From: Candidatus Thorarchaeota archaeon
GTDB taxonomy: Archaea; Asgardarchaeota; Thorarchaeia; Thorarchaeales; Thorarchaeaceae
Assembly: GCA_016840825.1 (NCBI GenBank)
Contig: JAEORN010000204.1
Coordinates: 1 to 57,453 of the forward strand
Direction: 5' to 3'
DNA: 57,453 nucleotides
The notes beneath the pieces are model-generated. The model saw nothing but the letters and a program-made list of their open reading frames with translations. It was not told where the DNA came from and did not search any database. Of the stretch, positions 6,536-15,732 are shown in pieces (the stretch's first letter is position 1; every line of letters begins with the position of its first letter). The position numbers and the translations under genes were made by a program.

Positions 6536-6560
6536 AAATTAAAAAAGAAGAATGAAGGAA
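6536..6560 (-). terminator. T-tract ending the hdr-mvh-vhuU transcript
   Basis: On the minus strand the base of the SECIS stem (ending GCACTTTCC) is followed by TTCATTCTTCTTTTTTAATTTC, a typical archaeal T-rich terminator. It separates this operon from the LRR gene promoter. Confidence 0.6.
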
Positions 6561-6634
6561 AGTGCGGGCGACCCTTGCGGGGTTGTCCGGTCCAACCCGA
6601 GTTTCGGTTGGACCTTCATGCGCCGCCCAGCACT
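6561..6634 (-). promoter_or_regulatory. SECIS element, eukaryote-like core
   Basis: Minus-strand RNA structure overlapping and following the selenoprotein stop codon. AUGA (6619-6616; its UGA is the stop codon) is followed by a perfect 9-bp helix, GGUCCAACC (6614-6606) with GGUUGGACC (6597-6589). The 8-base apical loop GAAACUCG carries three unpaired A. GGA (6588-6586) after the helix can supply the GA of the non-Watson-Crick quartet. About 11 bases separate AUGA from the apical A run, as in eukaryotic SECIS elements. A lower stem pairs AGUGC-U-GGGCG with CGCCC-GCACU, and a small ACCC/GGGU hairpin sits on the 3' side. Structure is seen directly; SECIS function is inferred from it and from the in-frame UGA. 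Confidence 0.8.
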
Positions 6635-6780
6635 AGTTCCTTCCTGGCTATCTCGTGCAACTCACCATCGTCATCCTCGCGAATGACGACCATGTGAGCC
6701 GCACATGATAGTCAGCAGTCATAGCAGCGTACGACCATCTCGATGAGATTGAGTACGCCTTCCGGTATTTCGTCAGTCAT
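6616..6780 (-). CDS. vhuU: selenocysteine-containing C-terminal piece of the NiFe hydrogenase large subunit (VhuU type)
   Basis: A 54-codon gene interrupted by one in-frame TGA (6714-6712, codon 23). Read as Sec it gives RCYDC-U-LSCAAH, the counterpart of the C-terminal NiFe-binding motif RSYDPCLSCATH that the upstream large-subunit gene lacks. U23 and C26 would be two of the four Ni ligands. Residues 30-54 follow the His after which maturation proteases cut related subunits, so they are probably removed. The ATG has AGGAG 9 bases upstream, overlapping the MvhA stop. In Methanococcus the same split Sec subunit is VhuU. Odd: Cys replaces the usual Pro before Sec. The motif match makes a plain stop at codon 23 unlikely. 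A SECIS overlaps its 3' end. Confidence 0.88.
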
Positions 6781-6792
6781 CTTTTATTTCTC

Positions 6793-8109
6793 CTAGGTCT
6801 TTACCAGTGGGTCGGGTAGTTTCAGACTGTCGAGGGCCTTGTCCTCGAAGATCTGCTTCGCTGCGGTCATGAGTGACTTCTCAATACCAGCGATGTTGTT
6901 GTTCGTTGCGACAATTAGATTGGCATGAACCAACATGCCATCTTCATCGCTGACGTAATTATGCATGAGGGTTCCTCTTGGAGCCTCTACAATTCCTACG
7001 CCCTCTCCTGCTTTTGGCTCTACATCCGAGAGTTTCACATCTTTGCTTACAATCATTGGATCCTCAAGTAGTGTCTTGATCCATTCTGCTGCTTGTACGA
7101 GTTCTACAATGCGAGCGTAGTGATAGACAAAGGTGTGATGTGATGGTCTACCAACAAGCTCACGCATCTCCTTAAGGGCTGCATCTGCCAATGGCGTTGC
7201 CATCTTATCTGCAACATTGCACCTGGCCAGAGTATTTGCTCGCCATATACCATCAGGATATCCAGCAGGTTTGTAGTATATGTGACTTGCATATGAGTGC
7301 GGAGCAATATGCTCACCATAGTACTTGGTATAGTCTTTAGGCTCAAAGTCAGCGACTATCTTTCCTGTAGGATCCATGACACGTACGTTTCCATCATAGA
7401 TGTCCAGTACACCATTATTTGTCAACCCAATATAATAGGTTGGAGTGACTGCAACTTTGGTAATGACATCGATGTATGCATTAACAACAGTCTTCGCAAG
7501 CTCAACCGTCTTATTGACGTTCTCAAGCATCTCGGGGACTTTCTTCAGCCATTTGTCACGGTCCTCCTCTGGTAGAGCATGTAGCATACCTCCTGGAATG
7601 CCCGTAACAGGATGAACTGCCTTGGCTCCAATATCACGAATCAGTTCTTGACCGAATTCCATGATCTTGATGGCTTGTACAGTCACATCCGGAAGATGTT
7701 TGAGTACAGCAGCAACATTCCTCACTGAAGGATCAGCGAATGGTCCGAATACGAAATCTGGTGCCGCGAGGGCATAGAAGTGAATTGCATGAGAGGATAG
7801 CTGCTTAGCCTCAATCATCAGTCTGCGTAGCTTGATGGCAGCGGGAGGTGGAGTGACATCCCATGCAGCCTCGACTGCTTTGATTGACGCCAAGTGGTGA
7901 GGTATCGGACATATGCCACAGATTCGTGGAGCAATTCTTGGAGCTTCCTCCATTGGTCGTCCAGTTAGGAACTGCTCGAAGAATCGAGTAGAACCGACAT
8001 TGTACTGAATATCTTTTACTTTGTTATCCTTGCCCAGCTTGATTGTAAGAGCACCATGGCCTTCTAATCGAGTGACTGGATCGATTTTGATAATCTTGTC
8101 TTCAGTCAT
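6793..8109 (-). CDS. mvhA: F420-non-reducing hydrogenase large subunit, C-terminally split
   Basis: The large subunit of the Mvh/Vhu-type NiFe hydrogenase, which oxidises H2 and passes electrons through MvhG and MvhD to heterodisulfide reductase. The N-terminal Ni ligands are present (C64 and C67 in RICGICPIPHH). The protein ends at residue 438 with PDPLVKT and has no DPCxxCxxH motif, which is normally at the C-terminus. That motif is encoded separately by the small selenoprotein gene starting 13 bases downstream. The start ATG directly follows the MvhG stop. Active-site assembly must therefore join two polypeptides, as in Methanococcus VhuA/VhuU. If the UGA downstream were not read, this hydrogenase would lack half of its nickel site. 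Confidence 0.95.
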   Translation of the reverse strand: MTEDKIIKIDPVTRLEGHGALTIKLGKDNKVKDIQYNVGSTRFFEQFLTGRPMEEAPRIAPRICGICPIPHHLASIKAVEAAWDVTPPPAAIKLRRLMIEAKQLSSHAIHFYALAAPDFVFGPFADPSVRNVAAVLKHLPDVTVQAIKIMEFGQELIRDIGAKAVHPVTGIPGGMLHALPEEDRDKWLKKVPEMLENVNKTVELAKTVVNAYIDVITKVAVTPTYYIGLTNNGVLDIYDGNVRVMDPTGKIVADFEPKDYTKYYGEHIAPHSYASHIYYKPAGYPDGIWRANTLARCNVADKMATPLADAALKEMRELVGRPSHHTFVYHYARIVELVQAAEWIKTLLEDPMIVSKDVKLSDVEPKAGEGVGIVEAPRGTLMHNYVSDEDGMLVHANLIVATNNNIAGIEKSLMTAAKQIFEDKALDSLKLPDPLVKT

Positions 8110-9045
8110 TTATGCTTCCTCCCTCGCTCTCTTTGCATCCTCATGTTTGATTCGCATTCGATTCAAATGACTTGTACCATATGTGAATCTATAGAACATG
8201 CTTAGAGGGTCCTTTACCTGCTCCATCAGCTTCTCAGGTTCTATTGGAGCATATGTTCCGAGCATTGACATTGCAGCAGCTCCAAAGTCTTGCATGATTG
8301 GAGGAGGTGGTCCAAAGCAGCCACGACATGTAGCTCCTTTATTCACACATTGCCCCTCACAGAGACCCCAAGTACTCGAACCGACGCAGATGTACCCTTG
8401 TTCAAGTAGACATCTGTCAGGGTCAGCATGACCAGTGAATGGTCGAAGGATTTCAGATATGGGGGTTTCCTTCTTCTCTCTAGAACAATAATGACATACT
8501 GTGTGTGGTGGTAAGTCCAGAGGTTCTCCAGTCAGAAGTGAATTGACCGCTGTTGCGATCAGCTTGGAGGTTGGAGGACATCCGGGCAGGTATATGTCAA
8601 AGTCAACGTAGTCGGAATTTGGCCGTACAACCGGCTCAATCTTTGGAACGTTCACTGAGGGAACCTTGCCGCCACTGAATGTCTTATTCTCTCTATATTT
8701 AGTATCATAGCATTCTTCAATGTCTGATAGATTCGCTAAAGCAGCAACACTTCCAAAGCATGCACATGAACCAAGTGCAATCAAAATCTGACACTTGTCA
8801 CGCATGATTTTCAGAAGATGTACATCCTCTGAGGTTCTAGCCATCCCCTCATAGAAACCGACGACTATAGATTTGTCATCATATCCTTCGAGGTGATGAA
8901 GCTTGAAGTCTGCTACTGCTTGCCAGTATTTGATTTCTAATTTCGGTAGCACATCTGCTAAACCGAGATGGATGTCAACTAGGCTTTGATAGCATCCCCA
9001 GCACGAGGAGCCTTGAGCCATTGCGACAGGTACCGGATCACCCAT
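8110..9045 (-). CDS. mvhG: F420-non-reducing hydrogenase small subunit
   Basis: A 311-residue electron-transfer subunit of the Mvh NiFe hydrogenase. The proximal cluster motif is C15-x2-C18 (SSCWGC), followed by GSCACFGS and LPGCPPTS. The C-terminal half has the further cluster-binding cysteines (HYCSREKK, CLLEQGYICVG, GLCEGQCVNKGATCRGCFG), so three Fe-S clusters are expected. No twin-arginine signal is present, so the enzyme is cytoplasmic, as usual for Mvh. It abuts mvhA with no gap and follows the small winged-helix gene by 2 bases, in one operon. Confidence 0.96.
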   Translation of the reverse strand: MGDPVPVAMAQGSSCWGCYQSLVDIHLGLADVLPKLEIKYWQAVADFKLHHLEGYDDKSIVVGFYEGMARTSEDVHLLKIMRDKCQILIALGSCACFGSVAALANLSDIEECYDTKYRENKTFSGGKVPSVNVPKIEPVVRPNSDYVDFDIYLPGCPPTSKLIATAVNSLLTGEPLDLPPHTVCHYCSREKKETPISEILRPFTGHADPDRCLLEQGYICVGSSTWGLCEGQCVNKGATCRGCFGPPPPIMQDFGAAAMSMLGTYAPIEPEKLMEQVKDPLSMFYRFTYGTSHLNRMRIKHEDAKRAREEA

Positions 9046-9047
9046 TT

Positions 9048-9281
9048 CTAGACCTCCTTGATGGCATAGACCAGCTCATGGCTCTCTTCTCCAGTAACCT
9101 CGATATCTCCCCATTTGAGCATCCCCATAAGATTCCAGACTACTAGTGCTGGAGAGAGCTCAGTTTTCTTGGAAATCGAAGCTACCGTGTTTGCGCCGCC
9201 AGTTAATGCCTCTTTTATTACCTTTCGTTGTTTACGCACATCACTGTGCTTTTGCTCAAAATATGTCGAGAAGCGTCTCAT
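9048..9281 (-). CDS. small winged-helix-like protein inside the mvh operon
   Basis: A 77-residue protein between mvhD and mvhG. Residues about 15-60 read as a helix-turn-helix (IKEALTGGANTVASISKKTELSPALVVWNLMGML split over three helices), resembling short winged-helix domains. The frame opens at a GTG at 9287, but the ATG at 9281 forms an ATGA overlap with the mvhD stop and has GAGGGAG upstream. With no Cys it cannot carry a cluster. It could regulate the operon or act as an assembly or scaffold factor for the complex; its tight packing inside the operon favours a role tied to the complex. Function not established. Confidence 0.7.
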   Translation of the reverse strand: MRRFSTYFEQKHSDVRKQRKVIKEALTGGANTVASISKKTELSPALVVWNLMGMLKWGDIEVTGEESHELVYAIKEV

Positions 9282-9721
9282 CTCCACTCCCTCTCTATTG
9301 GTCCAAGTTCCTTGACTTGGTCTACAAGTGTTCGCACTCCATCTGCGAATATCTGTGCCTCAGAGGCACTTGCCCATTGAAGTCGTACTCGCTTTGGATC
9401 GACACCTGATTGTTCAATCACTTTCTCCATCAATGCCCACCGCGCTCGAGCTTTGAGATTGCCGCTTGTGTAATGGCAATCACCAGGGTGGCAACCTGAA
9501 ACCAGCACTCCATCAGCACCCATATCAAGTGCTGCTAGGATGAATTCTACATCGATTCTACCTGTGCAGTTCACTCGAAGTATCCTAGCATTAGGAGGGT
9601 ATTGTATTCGTGATGTTCCAGCAAGGTCAGCACCAGCATAGGAACACCAGTTGCAACAGTATGCAACAATGCGGGGTTCCCAACCGTGGTCGACCTTGGT
9701 CTTGCTTGCCGATGCTGTCAT
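9278..9721 (-). CDS. mvhD: MvhD, electron-transfer subunit linking hydrogenase to Hdr
   Basis: A 147-residue [2Fe-2S] protein that transfers electrons from the hydrogenase to HdrA. The typical cysteines are present: C22, C23 and C26 (YCCNWCSYAGADLAG), C52 (NCTGRID), and C77 and C82 (SGCHPGDCHY). All are encoded as Cys; there is no in-frame TGA here, unlike VhuD of some methanogens. It sits directly after hdrA (stop and start adjacent) and overlaps the next gene, which supports one HdrABC-MvhADG complex. Confidence 0.96.
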   Translation of the reverse strand: MTASASKTKVDHGWEPRIVAYCCNWCSYAGADLAGTSRIQYPPNARILRVNCTGRIDVEFILAALDMGADGVLVSGCHPGDCHYTSGNLKARARWALMEKVIEQSGVDPKRVRLQWASASEAQIFADGVRTLVDQVKELGPIEREWR

Positions 9722-11503
9722 CTATGCACCACCTCCTGCAGGGGGTTCTAGCATAGGACAGAGAAACGCCTCCACCATAGCTAGAATCTGATCATTAGTT
9801 GAGTGGAGCATGATAATAGCACTACTTGGACAGCCTGCCGCACATGTACCACATCCATGACATTTAGCTTCTGTTACATATGCGATATGGGGGTCATGAG
9901 ACTCATCCCAAGTGATAGCACCATATGGACATCCAGTTAGGCAAGTTGCACATGAGGAACATAGCTCAGGAATCACTCTTGAAACAGTAGATTCAATCTC
10001 AACTGCACCCTTAGCCATAAGTCCGACAGCTTTTGCAGCGGCACCACTCGCATCAATGACTGCTTCAGATGCATTCTTCGCAGCCTGTGCAGCTCCAGCA
10101 ATCATGATCCCAGCTGTATGAGTCGTCACAGGGTTAAGCTTGACATGCTCTGGATTGAAGAATCCATCACCGCTTCGCGTTAAGCTGAAGGTGTGGCTGG
10201 TTTCCTCGATGCCCTCTGGCGGAACCATTGCGGATGCAAGGACAATGATGTCAGGATGGAATTCAAGATTCGTGTCAGCGAGAATGTCGCGCCAAGTCAA
10301 AGTCAACTTACCCCGATTCACAGCAACCTTAGGTTTCTGCTCGGGTGGAAACTTGGTGTAGATAACATGCTTCTGCCTTGCGATTCGCTGGAAGTCCTCG
10401 TGCTCTTTACCGTATGTTCGAATGTCTTGATAGAGGATGAGAGATTCCTCAAGTCTATCAGCCATGATACCTGCGGTCTTTGCCAATGCAGAACAACAAT
10501 ATCGAGAACAATGCTCATGTCCTTTGACGCCAGGCTCTCGAGAACCCACGCAACCAATATAGGCCACCTTCTTAACGGGTTTACCATCACTAGGTCGGAG
10601 GTATTGCTCTTCCTCTGGCTTGGATTGTAGATCAGCCAAAGTCATAACGTCTGGTGATTCACCATAGCCAAAGTATCCTATTGGTATGAAGGGTTGGAAT
10701 CCTGTCGTCACTATTACGGTCCCAATCTCGTACATCTTAGGTGTTTTCAATCCTTGAATTGTGACTTCTGCTTCGAAGTTGCCGACATAGCCTTCGAAGT
10801 TTGTGATAATAGCACCTGTACGAACCTCAATCTTCTTGTGCTTCTTGACTCGGTCTATGAGAGGTTTCAACACCTCAGAACCAGGCTGGTCACCAGGGAA
10901 CATGTGGGACCATTTTCGAACATTACCTCCAAGTTCACTTTCTCTCTCAACAAGTACAACTTCGAATCCTCTATCTGCAACATCCAAAGCAGCTCGAAGG
11001 CCCGCGATACCACCACCAACAATAAGCACTCGTGGGGTGATCTCCACCTTCTTGATTGGTAACGCTTCGAGATTTGCCGCTCGGGCTACTGACATTCGAA
11101 CGAGGTCCTTCGCTTTCTCCGTAGCTTTCTCAGGTTCACGCATATGACACCATGAAACATGTTCTCGAAGATTGACTTGCTCGAATAGGTATCTGTTTAG
11201 ACCTGCTTCTTCCACAACCCTACGGAAGGTAGGCTCATGCATTCGTGGAGAGCAACTTGCTACTACAACTCTATTCAGATGATATTCAGCAATCTTAGTG
11301 CGGATGGTCTCTTGTCCTGCATCACTGCAAGTAAACATCTCATGAGTCGTGAATACAACATTTGGTAATTTGGCAGCTGACTCAGCTACCGCAGCCACAT
11401 CAACGACTCCAGCAATGTTATGACCACAATGGCATACAAATACACCAATGCGAGGTTCTACCGTAGTGTCGACGACTTTTGTTTCAACGCTATCTTCTGT
11501 CAT
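9722..11503 (-). CDS. hdrA: heterodisulfide reductase subunit A (flavin, bifurcating)
   Basis: A 593-residue HdrA. The N-terminal domain has GVFVCHCGHNIAGVVDV and FTCSDAGQ; the FAD-binding Rossmann fold is VLIVGGGIAGLRAALD near residue 150; CVGSREPG plus CSRYCC is the cysteine-rich inserted motif; and two C-terminal [4Fe-4S] motifs follow (CSSCATCLTGCP, CHGCGTCAAGCP). HdrA holds the flavin that splits electrons from H2 between ferredoxin and a disulfide. The frame opens at 11521, but the ATG at 11503 makes an ATGA overlap with the hdrB stop and has GGGGTGG upstream. It is shorter than the second HdrA in this operon, which carries a GltD insertion. Confidence 0.95.
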   Translation of the reverse strand: MTEDSVETKVVDTTVEPRIGVFVCHCGHNIAGVVDVAAVAESAAKLPNVVFTTHEMFTCSDAGQETIRTKIAEYHLNRVVVASCSPRMHEPTFRRVVEEAGLNRYLFEQVNLREHVSWCHMREPEKATEKAKDLVRMSVARAANLEALPIKKVEITPRVLIVGGGIAGLRAALDVADRGFEVVLVERESELGGNVRKWSHMFPGDQPGSEVLKPLIDRVKKHKKIEVRTGAIITNFEGYVGNFEAEVTIQGLKTPKMYEIGTVIVTTGFQPFIPIGYFGYGESPDVMTLADLQSKPEEEQYLRPSDGKPVKKVAYIGCVGSREPGVKGHEHCSRYCCSALAKTAGIMADRLEESLILYQDIRTYGKEHEDFQRIARQKHVIYTKFPPEQKPKVAVNRGKLTLTWRDILADTNLEFHPDIIVLASAMVPPEGIEETSHTFSLTRSGDGFFNPEHVKLNPVTTHTAGIMIAGAAQAAKNASEAVIDASGAAAKAVGLMAKGAVEIESTVSRVIPELCSSCATCLTGCPYGAITWDESHDPHIAYVTEAKCHGCGTCAAGCPSSAIIMLHSTNDQILAMVEAFLCPMLEPPAGGGA

Positions 11504-12375
11504 TGAACCACCCCACAACAATCAATTACTGAGTGCGGATCTATCTTGTTCAGTTCGACGCCAAGAACATCCTCACCTATTCCCAACGCAGGTCCTAGGA
11601 ACTGCGGAATGGGAAGGACTGGGATCTTCTTTCTGCTACCTGCTCGTTCTCCAAACTGTACTTGGGTAAGTTGGATATCGCAAAAGACACAAGCTGTAAC
11701 AATGCCATCAGCCCCAGCCTTCGTGATGTTGTCGATTTTATCTAGACCGATAGTTGCTGCAACAGCTTCATCCATTGCTAGCATAGGTCCACCGCAACAA
11801 CGAGTTTTACCAGGATAATCAACTGAAGCAGCTCCCGCCGCTTCTACCAATCGATCTAGGATAGTGGGATTCTCTGGATCGTCTACCTGTACTATCTCGT
11901 AGGGACGAGTAACATGACAGCCATAGTGTGCCGCGAGTTTTACACCTTCATATGGTTTGACAACTGCTCTCTCGATTTTGTCAAAGCCAATATCCTCTGC
12001 AAGCACTTGTAATAGATGACGGACACGTATCTTCCCTGTGTACTTTAGCCCTTCCTCTGCTAACAGTGAATTCACTTCATCTCTAGCGCGAATATCGTGA
12101 TCAAGTAGGTGCTTGATAGTCTTCAATGAGCCAGAGCAAGCTCCACATAGTGCAAGGATATCTTTCTCCTCTCTCTCTGCAAGAGCAAGTATCCTTCCGC
12201 TCATAGAGGCATATGCCATCTTGTCCATTGACTCAACATATTGTGCTCCACAGCAGTTAGTGTCCTTCATTTCAATGAGATTGACTCCCAATTTCTTGAG
12301 CACTGCAATCGTAGCAGCCTCATACGCAGGAAGTCTAACCGGTGTAGTGCAACCTCTGTATAGTAGTAAGTCCAT
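11500..12375 (-). CDS. hdrB: heterodisulfide reductase subunit B
   Basis: The catalytic subunit, 291 residues, with both CCG domains that bind the noncubane [4Fe-4S] clusters: first C9, C41-C42-G, C77-x2-C80; second C153, C193-C194-G, C229-x2-C232. All ligands are intact. In methanogens it reduces CoM-S-S-CoB; in non-methanogenic Asgard archaea the disulfide or other acceptor is not known. It overlaps hdrC by one base and hdrA by four, so the three are translationally coupled. Confidence 0.96.
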   Translation of the reverse strand: MDLLLYRGCTTPVRLPAYEAATIAVLKKLGVNLIEMKDTNCCGAQYVESMDKMAYASMSGRILALAEREEKDILALCGACSGSLKTIKHLLDHDIRARDEVNSLLAEEGLKYTGKIRVRHLLQVLAEDIGFDKIERAVVKPYEGVKLAAHYGCHVTRPYEIVQVDDPENPTILDRLVEAAGAASVDYPGKTRCCGGPMLAMDEAVAATIGLDKIDNITKAGADGIVTACVFCDIQLTQVQFGERAGSRKKIPVLPIPQFLGPALGIGEDVLGVELNKIDPHSVIDCCGVVQ

Positions 12376-12911
12376 TATCTTGCTCCCTCCGCTTGCTTCT
12401 TCCTCTCGAAGTACCGTTTCCTAACTTTCTCTGCGAATTCATGATTCATCTCAAGATTGGGGTTCAATCCTAAATCATCCCGCTCGTCTTCTTGAAAGTC
12501 CGTGTAGGAATCCTTTAACATCCAACCGTCCTCCAAGACAGTTTCGAGTGTATCTTTGAAGACCTTTGGAATATGACCCTCCCTTGCCGCAATGACGCGG
12601 ACCGCATGGAAAATCTCCGCAGGAGAAACTCCTTCTTGGCAGCGTTCCTCACACATCCGACAGTTGAGACATAGCCATGATTGGTCACTGCCTAGAACCT
12701 CTTCACGCTTCCCGAGAATGATCTTCTGTATCATCCGTCGAGGCCGGTAAAGGTCATTCGCATTGGCAACCACACAGCTGGCTGTGCAGATACCACATTG
12801 GACGCACTTGTTAATAGCTTCCCCACCCTCTACCATCGCAACCTCGCGTGCAAAGCTGGAAGTGGGAATGTGAACATGTTCTTCAGATTTGGATTTTGTT
12901 TCTGTAGCCAT
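12375..12911 (-). CDS. hdrC: heterodisulfide reductase subunit C
   Basis: A 178-residue ferredoxin-like subunit with two [4Fe-4S] motifs, C36-x2-C39-x2-C42-x3-C46 and C81-x2-C84-x2-C87-x3-C91. It carries electrons from HdrA to HdrB. The hydrophilic N- and C-terminal ends give no membrane helix, so it belongs to the soluble HdrABC type rather than HdrDE. It follows the HdrA-GltD gene by 10 bases in the same operon. Confidence 0.95.
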   Translation of the reverse strand: MATETKSKSEEHVHIPTSSFAREVAMVEGGEAINKCVQCGICTASCVVANANDLYRPRRMIQKIILGKREEVLGSDQSWLCLNCRMCEERCQEGVSPAEIFHAVRVIAAREGHIPKVFKDTLETVLEDGWMLKDSYTDFQEDERDDLGLNPNLEMNHEFAEKVRKRYFERKKQAEGAR

Positions 12912-12921
12912 TTCTTATCAC

Positions 12922-15732
12922 CTACCTCGACTTGGAAGCCTCCAGTTCTGGCTCAGAAGCCACTGGGGCTAATACAACACTAGACCCTGCATTCTGCATT
13001 GTACTCAAGACAATAGAGGCCCGCATCGCAGCTGCACTACCAGCCGTCACGGAGTCAGGTATGTCCTTTGGGCCATCTGCACATCCGCACACGTAGATAC
13101 CATCCTCGCTAGTATCAACAGGCTCGATGAGATCATTCCGTACATCGATATATCCTTCCTCGGATAGGTCGATACCAAGCTCAGCAGCAATCTCGTCCAT
13201 ATCATCTGGTGGTTGTAGACCAGGACTTAGCACCAAGAGATCATGTTCTATCTTCTGAACTGCACCACTCTCAGTGTTCTCTACCTGAATGATGAGGTTA
13301 CCATTCGTGGGATTCTCATCAACCTCAGCCACGCGACCTCGCAGGAATGTAACTCCGAAACGAGTCTTTGCCATCTCATAGAACTCTTCGAAGCCCTTTC
13401 CAAATGCACGTATATCTGCATAGTACATTGATACATTTGCCTCTGGGTCGTGCTCTCTCGCCATCACAGCATTCTTGATACCATACATGCAACAGACGCG
13501 ACTGCAGTTCGGGACATCTTTCTGTGTGTCTCGTGCTCCGACGCACTGCACGAAACCAATATTCTTGGGCATTTTCCCATCGCTGAATCGAATCAAATGT
13601 CCTTGAGTCGGTCCAGCTGCATTGATGAGGCGTTCATATTCCATAGCAGTGATAACGTTCTGGAACTTGCCATAGCCCAAACGTTTGTACTTACTTACAT
13701 CAAATAACTTGTAGCCAGTAGCAACCACGATTGCACCTACGTTGAGACGCATATGTTCCTCTTTCATTGAATGATCAATCGCTTCCCGCTCACAGGCTTC
13801 AACACAGCTCATGCACTCACAGCAGTGTGTACAATTCAGGCATCGTCCGGCCTCACTAATTGCTTTCTCCTGATCAAACCCGAGCTCGACCTCCGTGAAG
13901 TCACCTTTCCTGCTTGATATGCTCTGATAGGGCATGAAAGCTCGTGCTTGCGGTTGGAAATGAGCCTGATCGACTGTTGGTTTTGCAACTCTGTATATCT
14001 CAGGTTCTCTACCAGCTCTGAGGTCCTCCCCGCGGAGATATCTATCAATAGAGATAGCAGCTTCACGTCCTTGACCAACTGCTTGAACAACAGTAGCGGG
14101 ACCCAAGACACAGTCACCACCTGCGAAAACATCCTTCATGCTTGTCTGCAGTGTGACCTGATCAGCAATGATGGTTCCCCATTCTGTAGTATCGAGTCCG
14201 TTGTGAAGCGGGATAGGTTCTACAGATTGTCCTACAGCTACAATCATGGTATCAGCGACTACAGTGAATTCAGAGTCAGGGATTGGGCGAGGTCTTCGTC
14301 GTCCTGAGTGATCAGGCTCGCCAAGACGCATTCGGATACACTTGACACCTTGGATGGCTCCACTTTTCGTGATCACCTCAACAGGGTTTGTCAAAAACAT
14401 AAATCTGATACCTTCTTCACGTGCTGCTTCTACCTCAGTGGGAGTAGCTGGAATCTCAACCTGAGAACGCCGATAAATCATCGTCACTTCTTGGGCGCCC
14501 ATTCGAAGCGCTACTCTACAAGAGTCTACTGCAGCATCACCGCCGCCAATGACAACAACTCGTTCTCCAACCTCCACTCGTTCGTTGGAGGCAATCTTAT
14601 CCAAGAACTCAATGGCGTGATAGACACCCTTTGATTCCTCTCCCGCTATCATCAGTTTATTGCTTTGACTTGCACCAGTCCCAATGAAGATAGCTTTATA
14701 CCCTTCCTTCTTGAGTTCATCAATCGATTGGATATCCCTATCACAAATGAAGTCTACTCCGTGCTTTCCAACCCAATGAATCTCCTCACGAAGTATCTCT
14801 CTTGGAAGTCGATACTCTGGTATAGACCATTTCAAGAGACCTCCCTCTTCAGATCGTTTTTCGAAGACTGTGACCGGGTAGCCTTTGCGAGCAAGTTGGT
14901 ACGCACAGGATATACCTGCAGGACCAGCTCCTATAACTGCCACCCTCTCCTCCTTGTCAATCTTCGATTCTACAGGAATCTGAGTTCCATACTCTCGCTC
15001 ATAATCTGCTAGGAATCTGTGAAGATTTCGTATGCTAATGCTCTCATCGTACTCTCCTCGCTGGCATTGACCTTCACACCAACTAACACATACCCTTCCT
15101 AGTGTTCCAGGGAATGGTACAGCGTCCCGAACGATCTTTATGGCATCAGCGAATCGTTCCTGATTTAGTAATGTTACAAAAGCCTGCGCATTTACCTGTG
15201 CTGGACAATTGATACGACAAGCGGGGTGATCTCGTTTGTCGATTGTATAAACATTAGGAGTTGCTTGTGGGAATGGAAGATAGGTTGCTTTCCTGAAACC
15301 GAGACCTTGGTCGAATTCATTTGAGGTCTCTATCGGGCATACTTCAACACAAGCACCACACCCTGAGCATTTATCCTCCAAGATGTATCGCGGCTTTCTT
15401 AGTACTTCCACATGGAAGTTTCCAGCTTTACCAGTCACTCTCTTGACTTCCGAATATGTAAGAAGTTCGATATTCGGATGTCGTGCTACTTCGCTAAGTC
15501 GGGGAGTCAAGATACATGCAGAGCAATCAAGGGTTGGGAACGTCTTGTCGATCGCTGCCATTCTACCGCCTATACTGGGGGTCTTTTCGACAAGATGGAC
15601 CTTGAATCCTTGATTTGCTATATCAAGTGCCGCCTGCATGCCAGCTACTCCGCCGCCGATCACGAGAGCACTGGAAGCCTGGTCGTTTGCTCCTATAGCA
15701 TCATTCGTTTGCGTCGGTTTTTCAATTGTCAT
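12922..15732 (-). CDS. hdrA: HdrA with inserted GltD-like NAD(P)H oxidoreductase domain
   Basis: A 936-residue fusion, first gene of the operon. Residues 1-135: HdrA FAD domain (VIGGGVAGMQAALD, CSACILTPRL) and a [4Fe-4S] motif CSGCGACVEVCP. About 170-580: a complete GltD-like module with CRINCPAQ, CVSWCEGQCQ, an FAD fold VAVIGAGPAGISCAYQLA, an NAD(P) fold VVVIGGGDAAVDSC and AGGDCVLGP. About 625-650: CLNCTHCCECMSCVEAC. The rest is the second half of HdrA, with CVGARD and CSRVCCMYG. The GltD part offers an NAD(P)H entry or exit site, so the complex may link H2, ferredoxin, NAD(P)H and a disulfide. GAGGAGCT lies before the ATG. Similar HdrA-GltD fusions occur in bacteria and archaea; substrate choice is inference. 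Confidence 0.93.
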   Translation of the reverse strand: MTIEKPTQTNDAIGANDQASSALVIGGGVAGMQAALDIANQGFKVHLVEKTPSIGGRMAAIDKTFPTLDCSACILTPRLSEVARHPNIELLTYSEVKRVTGKAGNFHVEVLRKPRYILEDKCSGCGACVEVCPIETSNEFDQGLGFRKATYLPFPQATPNVYTIDKRDHPACRINCPAQVNAQAFVTLLNQERFADAIKIVRDAVPFPGTLGRVCVSWCEGQCQRGEYDESISIRNLHRFLADYEREYGTQIPVESKIDKEERVAVIGAGPAGISCAYQLARKGYPVTVFEKRSEEGGLLKWSIPEYRLPREILREEIHWVGKHGVDFICDRDIQSIDELKKEGYKAIFIGTGASQSNKLMIAGEESKGVYHAIEFLDKIASNERVEVGERVVVIGGGDAAVDSCRVALRMGAQEVTMIYRRSQVEIPATPTEVEAAREEGIRFMFLTNPVEVITKSGAIQGVKCIRMRLGEPDHSGRRRPRPIPDSEFTVVADTMIVAVGQSVEPIPLHNGLDTTEWGTIIADQVTLQTSMKDVFAGGDCVLGPATVVQAVGQGREAAISIDRYLRGEDLRAGREPEIYRVAKPTVDQAHFQPQARAFMPYQSISSRKGDFTEVELGFDQEKAISEAGRCLNCTHCCECMSCVEACEREAIDHSMKEEHMRLNVGAIVVATGYKLFDVSKYKRLGYGKFQNVITAMEYERLINAAGPTQGHLIRFSDGKMPKNIGFVQCVGARDTQKDVPNCSRVCCMYGIKNAVMAREHDPEANVSMYYADIRAFGKGFEEFYEMAKTRFGVTFLRGRVAEVDENPTNGNLIIQVENTESGAVQKIEHDLLVLSPGLQPPDDMDEIAAELGIDLSEEGYIDVRNDLIEPVDTSEDGIYVCGCADGPKDIPDSVTAGSAAAMRASIVLSTMQNAGSSVVLAPVASEPELEASKSR

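Follow-up and report, generated by a model that had tools for sequence, protein, structure and literature searches.

The open reading frame at positions 6616-6780 on the minus strand of the DNA analyzed here, a 57,453-nucleotide stretch from Candidatus Thorarchaeota archaeon (referred to as the window), very probably encodes an Asgard-type VhuU. Codon 23 of this frame is a UGA that is likely read as selenocysteine (Sec), and the peptide would supply the UxxCxxH strand that the hydrogenase large subunit VhuA lacks. Sequence comparisons support this assignment by a complementary split between the two genes, a conserved UGA, an open frame behind it, homologs with Cys in place of Sec, covarying helices in a 3' element, and the Sec machinery of relatives. 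The arrangement of a small Sec peptide and a VhuA without the motif is of a kind already reported in archaea including Asgard archaea, and vhuU of the window is one more member of a reported Asgard selenoprotein family.

The vhuU frame lies 12 nt past the vhuA stop and consists of 54 codons and a TGA stop. Its coordinates had been given correctly in the earlier note; the strand, which was left unstated there, is the minus strand. Translation also confirmed that codon 23 is TGA (6714-6712) and that the frame stays open to a second stop, with 31 further codons up to the TGA at 6618-6616. The product is MTDEIPEGVLNLIEMVVRCYDC-U-LSCAAHMVVIREDDDGELHEIARKELVLGGA. By homology, the in-frame TGA (6712-6714) occupies the position of a Ni ligand as the first residue of UxxC, and the preceding Cys22 codon (6715-6717) replaces the Pro of the DPC/DPU motif. 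The NCBIfam model for VhuU, NF041786, matches the peptide with TGA read as Cys at 8e-16 and 57.6 bits, which is below the curated cut-off of 70 bits for this equivalog and counts against membership. Two traits of VhuU are present, namely the in-frame UGA at the first Cys position of the CxxCxxH motif and the location of a short frame beside a vhuA without the C-terminal CxxC motif; in place of the Pro before Sec (DPU), the window has DCU. By its sequence, the peptide is a homolog that would work like VhuU and stands outside the NF041786 equivalog by score.

The neighboring vhuA gene (6793-8109, minus strand) encodes a large subunit with the N-terminal motif RICGICPIPHH. Its C-terminus reads LKLPDPLVKT directly before the stop codon, and D-x-C-x-x-C-x-x-H is absent, as had been claimed for the gene annotated as MvhA in the earlier note. 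The sequences of both products likewise bear out that the motif behind the TGA complements the one missing from VhuA. Upstream of vhuA and in the same direction, family searches identified genes for an MvhG/VhuG-like small subunit (8110-9045) and for HdrA-like (9722-11521), HdrB-like (11500-12375), and HdrC-like (12375-12911) proteins. The same minus-strand series includes an mvhD/vhuD-like gene without in-frame TGA (9278-9721) and a long hdrA-like gene (12922-15732) encoding 936 amino acids with an inserted GltD-like NAD(P)-binding region. A frame of 79 amino acids between the mvhG- and mvhD-like genes (9048-9287, minus strand) has no Pfam or NCBIfam match. The VhuU peptide and VhuA would together make up a [NiFeSe] hydrogenase, with MvhG, MvhD, and the Hdr proteins as its coupling partners. 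In other NiFe hydrogenases, the tail behind the motif His is removed, and by analogy the VhuU tail after His29 may be cleaved.

Pooled searches yielded 128 vhuU copies including the window, made distinct by their 120-nt context, after exclusion of six chance motif matches (three with R-TGT and one each with G, F, and S before TGA). All 128 copies have TGA at the codon and keep the motif-final His. Among named records, 37 loci encode a VhuA relative, and a frame with TGA at the same codon accompanies 31 of these; the remaining six comprise three loci lacking such a frame within 900 nt, one that ends at a contig edge, one that is masked, and one that is truncated. For three VhuA paralogs (L028, L029, L030; 68-69% identity), no motif of the VhuU type occurs within 900 nt. 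Of 227 Asgard genomes searched, 146 contained a match. Directly upstream of vhuU, a vhuA is found in 103 of the 128 copies, none of which carries the motif. In the remaining 25 copies, vhuA is cut or missed by the pattern in three (L085, L140, L141), an hdrB-like frame precedes vhuU in 11, and at most 721 nt of upstream sequence is available in 11. The hdrB-like assignment was judged by eye (L092, L094, L099, L109, L113, L120, L125, L134, L136, L145, L155). Beside an intact vhuU copy, one locus, L226 (G005 contig C24), contains two additional 3' ends of vhuU that look decayed, each with a 3' element.

The earlier note had named a plain stop at codon 23 in homologs, with a full-length MvhA elsewhere, as a finding that would speak against Sec; all 128 small homologs have TGA, and four further proteins have Cys at this position. 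One of these, P0002, reads YDCCLSCAAH (DCC..C..H), and the other three (L089, L159, L176 from the Asgard genomes G214, G110, G192) read DCCLSCSAF with Phe for the final His. An early TAA in the tail of one vhuU copy (L153) counts against the Sec reading. In a VhuA tree of 112 rows, built by a quick method and rooted at the midpoint, the window groups with L001 and L002 in a clade whose records mostly bear Thorarchaeota names. The label "Thorarchaeota clade" is ours and follows these named loci; a second large clade is labeled "probably Lokiarchaeota" from its AAAAA loop only, which the main text of PMC11227280 gives for Lokiarchaeia.

The machinery for Sec insertion was searched in the genomes of 33 relatives. 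Matches over the cut-off were found for tRNA-Sec in 27, for SepSecS in 31, for EFsec/SelB in 28, and for SelD in all 33; the best SelD match contains an in-frame TGA in 30 of these. PSTK was matched at E<=1e-3 in 30 genomes (29 at <=2.2e-28) and in none above the curated cut-off. This counts against the Sec reading, as does the lack of over-cut-off matches for tRNA-Sec in six, EFsec in five, and SepSecS in two of these draft genomes. In G001 and G002, which are the nearest relatives, PSTK, tRNA-Sec, SepSecS, and EFsec are encoded side by side on one contig each (L227 on contig C69 and L228 on contig C266, respectively). The SelD match lies in a frame of about 750 amino acids without TGA in three loci (L255, L256, L257 in G009, G017, G032). 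The window itself contains no tRNA genes. The Sec machinery, which the earlier note had made a test of its claim, is thus present in relatives as tRNA-Sec, SepSecS, PSTK-like protein, EFsec, and Sec-type SelD. Together with the conserved TGA and the 3' element, it supports the proposal that the frame is the Sec-encoding half of a split NiFe-hydrogenase site.

Behind the in-frame TGA, the minus strand is predicted to form a SECIS-like three-way junction (6554-6644). The fold of this 3' region has -52.9 kcal/mol and a z of -4.69. In its lower stem, the last codons of vhuU (within 6644-6622) pair with 6570-6554. A kink-turn-type hairpin (6586-6619) has AUGA at 6619-6616, the 3' GA at 6587-6586, and a 9-bp stem (6614-6606 with 6597-6589) closed by the loop GAAACUCG. 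For the type I eSECIS-like element of Asgard archaea, the main text of PMC11227280 gives a core of NNGA and [G/A]A, an upper stem of 7-15 bp with at most two mismatches, and an apical loop of 8-20 nt; the window has AUGA/GA, 9 bp without mismatch, and the 8-nt loop GAAACUCG. A covariance model of alignment A1 (37 sequences, the window being among the training sequences) matches 6553-6655 with 100 bits and detects no further elements in the window besides the one of vhuU. No Rfam family matches the window at gathering score. By its modeled fold, the 3' element is predicted to direct Sec insertion. Passages of PMC11881835 report that a lokiarchaeal SECIS failed in M. maripaludis, which counts against this role, and the recognition of archaeal SECIS elements without SBP2 is described as an open question in passages of PMC9499178 and PMC11881835.

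The terminal TGA of vhuU (6616-6618) also serves as the UGA within the AUGA core. In a scan with a strict type I pattern, 97 of the 128 vhuU copies matched, compared to 107 of 2560 shuffles; the misfits count against the Sec reading. When the pattern was relaxed, core UGA and stop codon coincided in 111 of the 116 copies terminated by UGA, and the other five are those without a detected core. Every UGA terminator for which a core was detected thus lies within that core. At a score of >=6, 110 of these 116 copies have the core at the stop codon versus 67 of 2320 shuffles, although the vhuU copies are related and hence represent few independent events of core and stop overlap. Of the 12 copies terminated by UAA or UAG, 11 have the core 5-45 nt further on, and it was not found in one. 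In total, the relaxed scan did not detect a core in six of the 128 copies, which also counts against the Sec reading. An overlap of UGA stops with AUGA is described as frequent in Lokiarchaeia in the main text of PMC11227280. As the terminal UGA is located within the core, a ribosome arriving there would have unfolded the element and would read the codon as a stop. Accommodation of the in-frame UGA would occur by tRNA-Sec delivered by EFsec while the 3' element is folded, so that the SECIS would work for the upstream UGA only and would be erased by the ribosome before the terminal UGA.

The junction includes a second, small hairpin, ACCC-CGCAA-GGGU (6571-6583, minus strand). RNAalifold returned the same three-way junction for A1 (37 copies of the Thorarchaeota clade) and A2 (40 copies of the second large clade), consisting of the lower stem using the last codons, the kink-turn hairpin, and the small hairpin with a YGC loop. 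In A1, 14 of 21 pairs are changed on both sides, as are 10 of 18 in A2, and none of 500 shuffles reached the observed covariation on any measure but one, for which one of 500 did. Alignments A1-A3 (37, 40, and 19 sequences) were built from the 97 strict-scan matches of the 128 copies and therefore lean to the model; L124 was dropped at a contig edge, and A3 aligned poorly and was left out of the results. The YGC loop is present in 36 of 37 sequences in A1 and 38 of 40 in A2. The second hairpin alone shows double changes in one of four pairs in A1 (12 cells); it is constant in A2 without covarying pairs, which counts against the proposed reading.

The same topology was found at the 3' ends of selD in relatives, in alignment A5, which was made independently. 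The TGA form of selD occurs in 30 genomes, of which 27 loci were fetched; two of these (L266, L278) lack the gene end, leaving 25 sequences. Double changes affect 12 of 17 pairs and three of four pairs of the second hairpin, and 22 of 25 sequences have the YGC loop. The selD stop is TGA in all 25 genes and is located at the core position (L258-L284).

In the 33 relatives, the A1 covariance model also detected elements directly 3' of cysS. The SECIS-like three-way junction is found in seven of 26 cysS loci (L238, L242, L244, L247, L248, L250, L252), with L253, which is cut before the gene end, included in the 26. Two more model matches in L251 (14 and 12 bits) were attributed to chance. The lower stem lies about 10-37 nt past the cysS stop. 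In alignment A4 (n=7), which was fitted to the vhuU model, 13 of 21 pairs and two of four pairs of the second hairpin are doubly changed, and the YGC loop is present in six of seven sequences. The element is patchy, being present in G007 and absent from its close relative G004. There is no in-frame stop or UGA inside the cysS frames of element-bearing loci. Read-through of a UGA at the cysS stop was rejected as the target of the element, since the stops of these genes are mixed (TAG in two, TAA in two, and TGA in three). A conserved UGA-bearing small frame upstream of cysS was also rejected, because this stretch looks promoter-like and is also conserved at cysS genes without the element. Judged by title, none of the papers listed by a literature search deals with a cysS element.

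Several other explanations have to be weighed against read-through with Sec. A sequencing error at codon 23 was rejected in view of the TGA in 128 copies distinct by context. These copies and the preference for synonymous changes behind the TGA also show that the codon is not there by chance: in 40 related sequences, compared ungapped in all, non-independent pairs, the synonymous share of single-base codon differences is 0.69 versus 0.25 expected for the 14 codons after the TGA and 0.86 versus 0.22 for the 14 codons before it. Codon 23 could be an ordinary stop, in which case vhuU would be a decayed or regulatory frame of 22 codons and the hydrogenase would lack its Ni-binding strand. Although the evidence for read-through comes from sequence and the Sec machinery is known from relatives' genomes, this explanation is very improbable, as the motif behind the TGA is kept in 128 copies with a synonymous bias, Cys replaces Sec in P0002, L089, L159, and L176, the 3' element covaries, and relatives possess the machinery. 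Hardly any probability is likewise given to a reading of UGA as another amino acid such as Cys or Trp by near-cognate suppression. The Cys forms show that Cys is tolerable at codon 23, but suppression would leave the SECIS-like element without a purpose and is opposed by tRNA-Sec, SepSecS, and EFsec in most of the 33 relatives and by SelD with its own TGA in 30 of them.

Two further alternatives concern only parts of the Sec-inserting VhuU. The second hairpin might be a stem filler or part of a terminator outside SECIS function, which agrees with its GC-rich sequence and with the lack of covariation in A2. This is rather unlikely, because the hairpin is inside the lower stem and not beside a T run, its YGC loop recurs in vhuU (36/37 and 38/40), selD (22/25), and cysS elements (6/7), and pairs are doubly changed in A1 (1/4), selD (3/4), and cysS (2/4). 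The residue before the TGA is Cys in 125 of the 128 vhuU copies, Pro in two (L166, L171), and Asn in one (L177), whereas one-piece Asgard MvhA proteins have DPC in all eight fetched of at least 17. The judgment in the earlier note that Cys for Pro is unusual therefore applies to the comparison with PDB 9sfi and these MvhA proteins; among the split Asgard forms, it is the norm. As the P-U and N-U copies are nested inside a C-U clade in the VhuA tree, Cys appears to be the ancestral residue of the split Asgard form. It is about an even chance that Cys22 is a merely tolerated replacement of Pro with no function of its own: the position can change, as the P-U and N-U copies within the C-U clade indicate, and Cys is kept in the Cys forms (DCC) as well, so that it is not tied to selenium, whereas 125 of 128 copies, spread over the clades of the VhuA tree, have Cys here despite variation elsewhere in the peptide, which speaks for a role. 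As a tentative guess, Cys22 may provide a thiol that pairs with Sec close to Ni, for example by a reversible Se-S bond under oxidation. A Cys directly before the Ni-binding Sec is a natural variant of the DPC/DPU motif and may bear on oxygen or redox protection.

A joint reading of these features would combine a SECIS of two hairpins in a junction, in which the eukaryote-like kink-turn hairpin is complemented by the YGC-loop hairpin as a further docking site, a core with the stop UGA that is erased by the ribosome having used it ahead of the gene's own stop, the Cys-Sec pair at Ni, and an element behind cysS that would act as a switch tying the supply of cysteinyl-tRNA to the state of the Sec machinery. 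As a whole, this combination is doubtful. The second hairpin in the vhuU, selD, and cysS elements provides a concrete place to seek the missing SECIS-binding factor, which would concern the archaea closest to eukaryotes. In its main text, PMC11227280 describes the core, upper stem, and lower stem of the element and contains neither the word hairpin nor a mention of Cys before Sec, and a passage of the review PMC9499178 ascribes a single apical loop to the Lokiarchaeota SECIS. Within the main text of PMC11227280 and the passages of the other cited papers, the Cys before Sec, the second hairpin, and the cysS element are apparently new.

Several known systems share parts of the arrangement. A structural counterpart is PDB 9sfi, in which a tiny peptide (chain M, 27 amino acids) and a large subunit without the C-terminal motif (chain g) form the same split. 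Chain g is a 418-residue VhuA with 1.3e-129 to VhuA of the window. In the alignment with chain M, which extends to AAHM, U or X is at the first position of xUxxC; U23 of the window is opposite X, which is taken as Sec, and C22 is opposite Pro. Compared to VhuU as represented by NF041786 and 9sfi, the window peptide thus has Cys, not Pro, before Sec and a 25-residue tail after His. Its 3' element is eukaryote-like, in contrast to the GAA_A type of methanogen SECIS elements. In the [NiFeSe] hydrogenases of sulfate reducers, a DPxxxC motif contributes Sec or Cys as the terminal Ni ligand; these enzymes and one-piece MvhA likewise use a Sec or Cys ligand, but in a single chain and with Pro before the ligand. 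Thioredoxin reductase has a C-terminal Gly-Cys-Sec-Gly redox pair, in which Cys and Sec are also adjacent, but the fold is unrelated and the pair of the window is beside a metal site, so that this is a resemblance only. The VhuU arrangement known from Methanococcus, to which the earlier note had referred, is indeed known there but also in Asgard archaea, as the main text of Huang et al. (2024, PMC11227280) reports Sec-containing FrhA, MvhA, and VhuU in this group, Thorarchaeia included. With the Asgard selenoproteins and eSECIS elements described there, the window shares the family, the lineage, the AUGA_GA core, the upper stem of 7-15 bp, the apical As, and the UGA stop overlapping AUGA, which is stated there for Lokiarchaeia.
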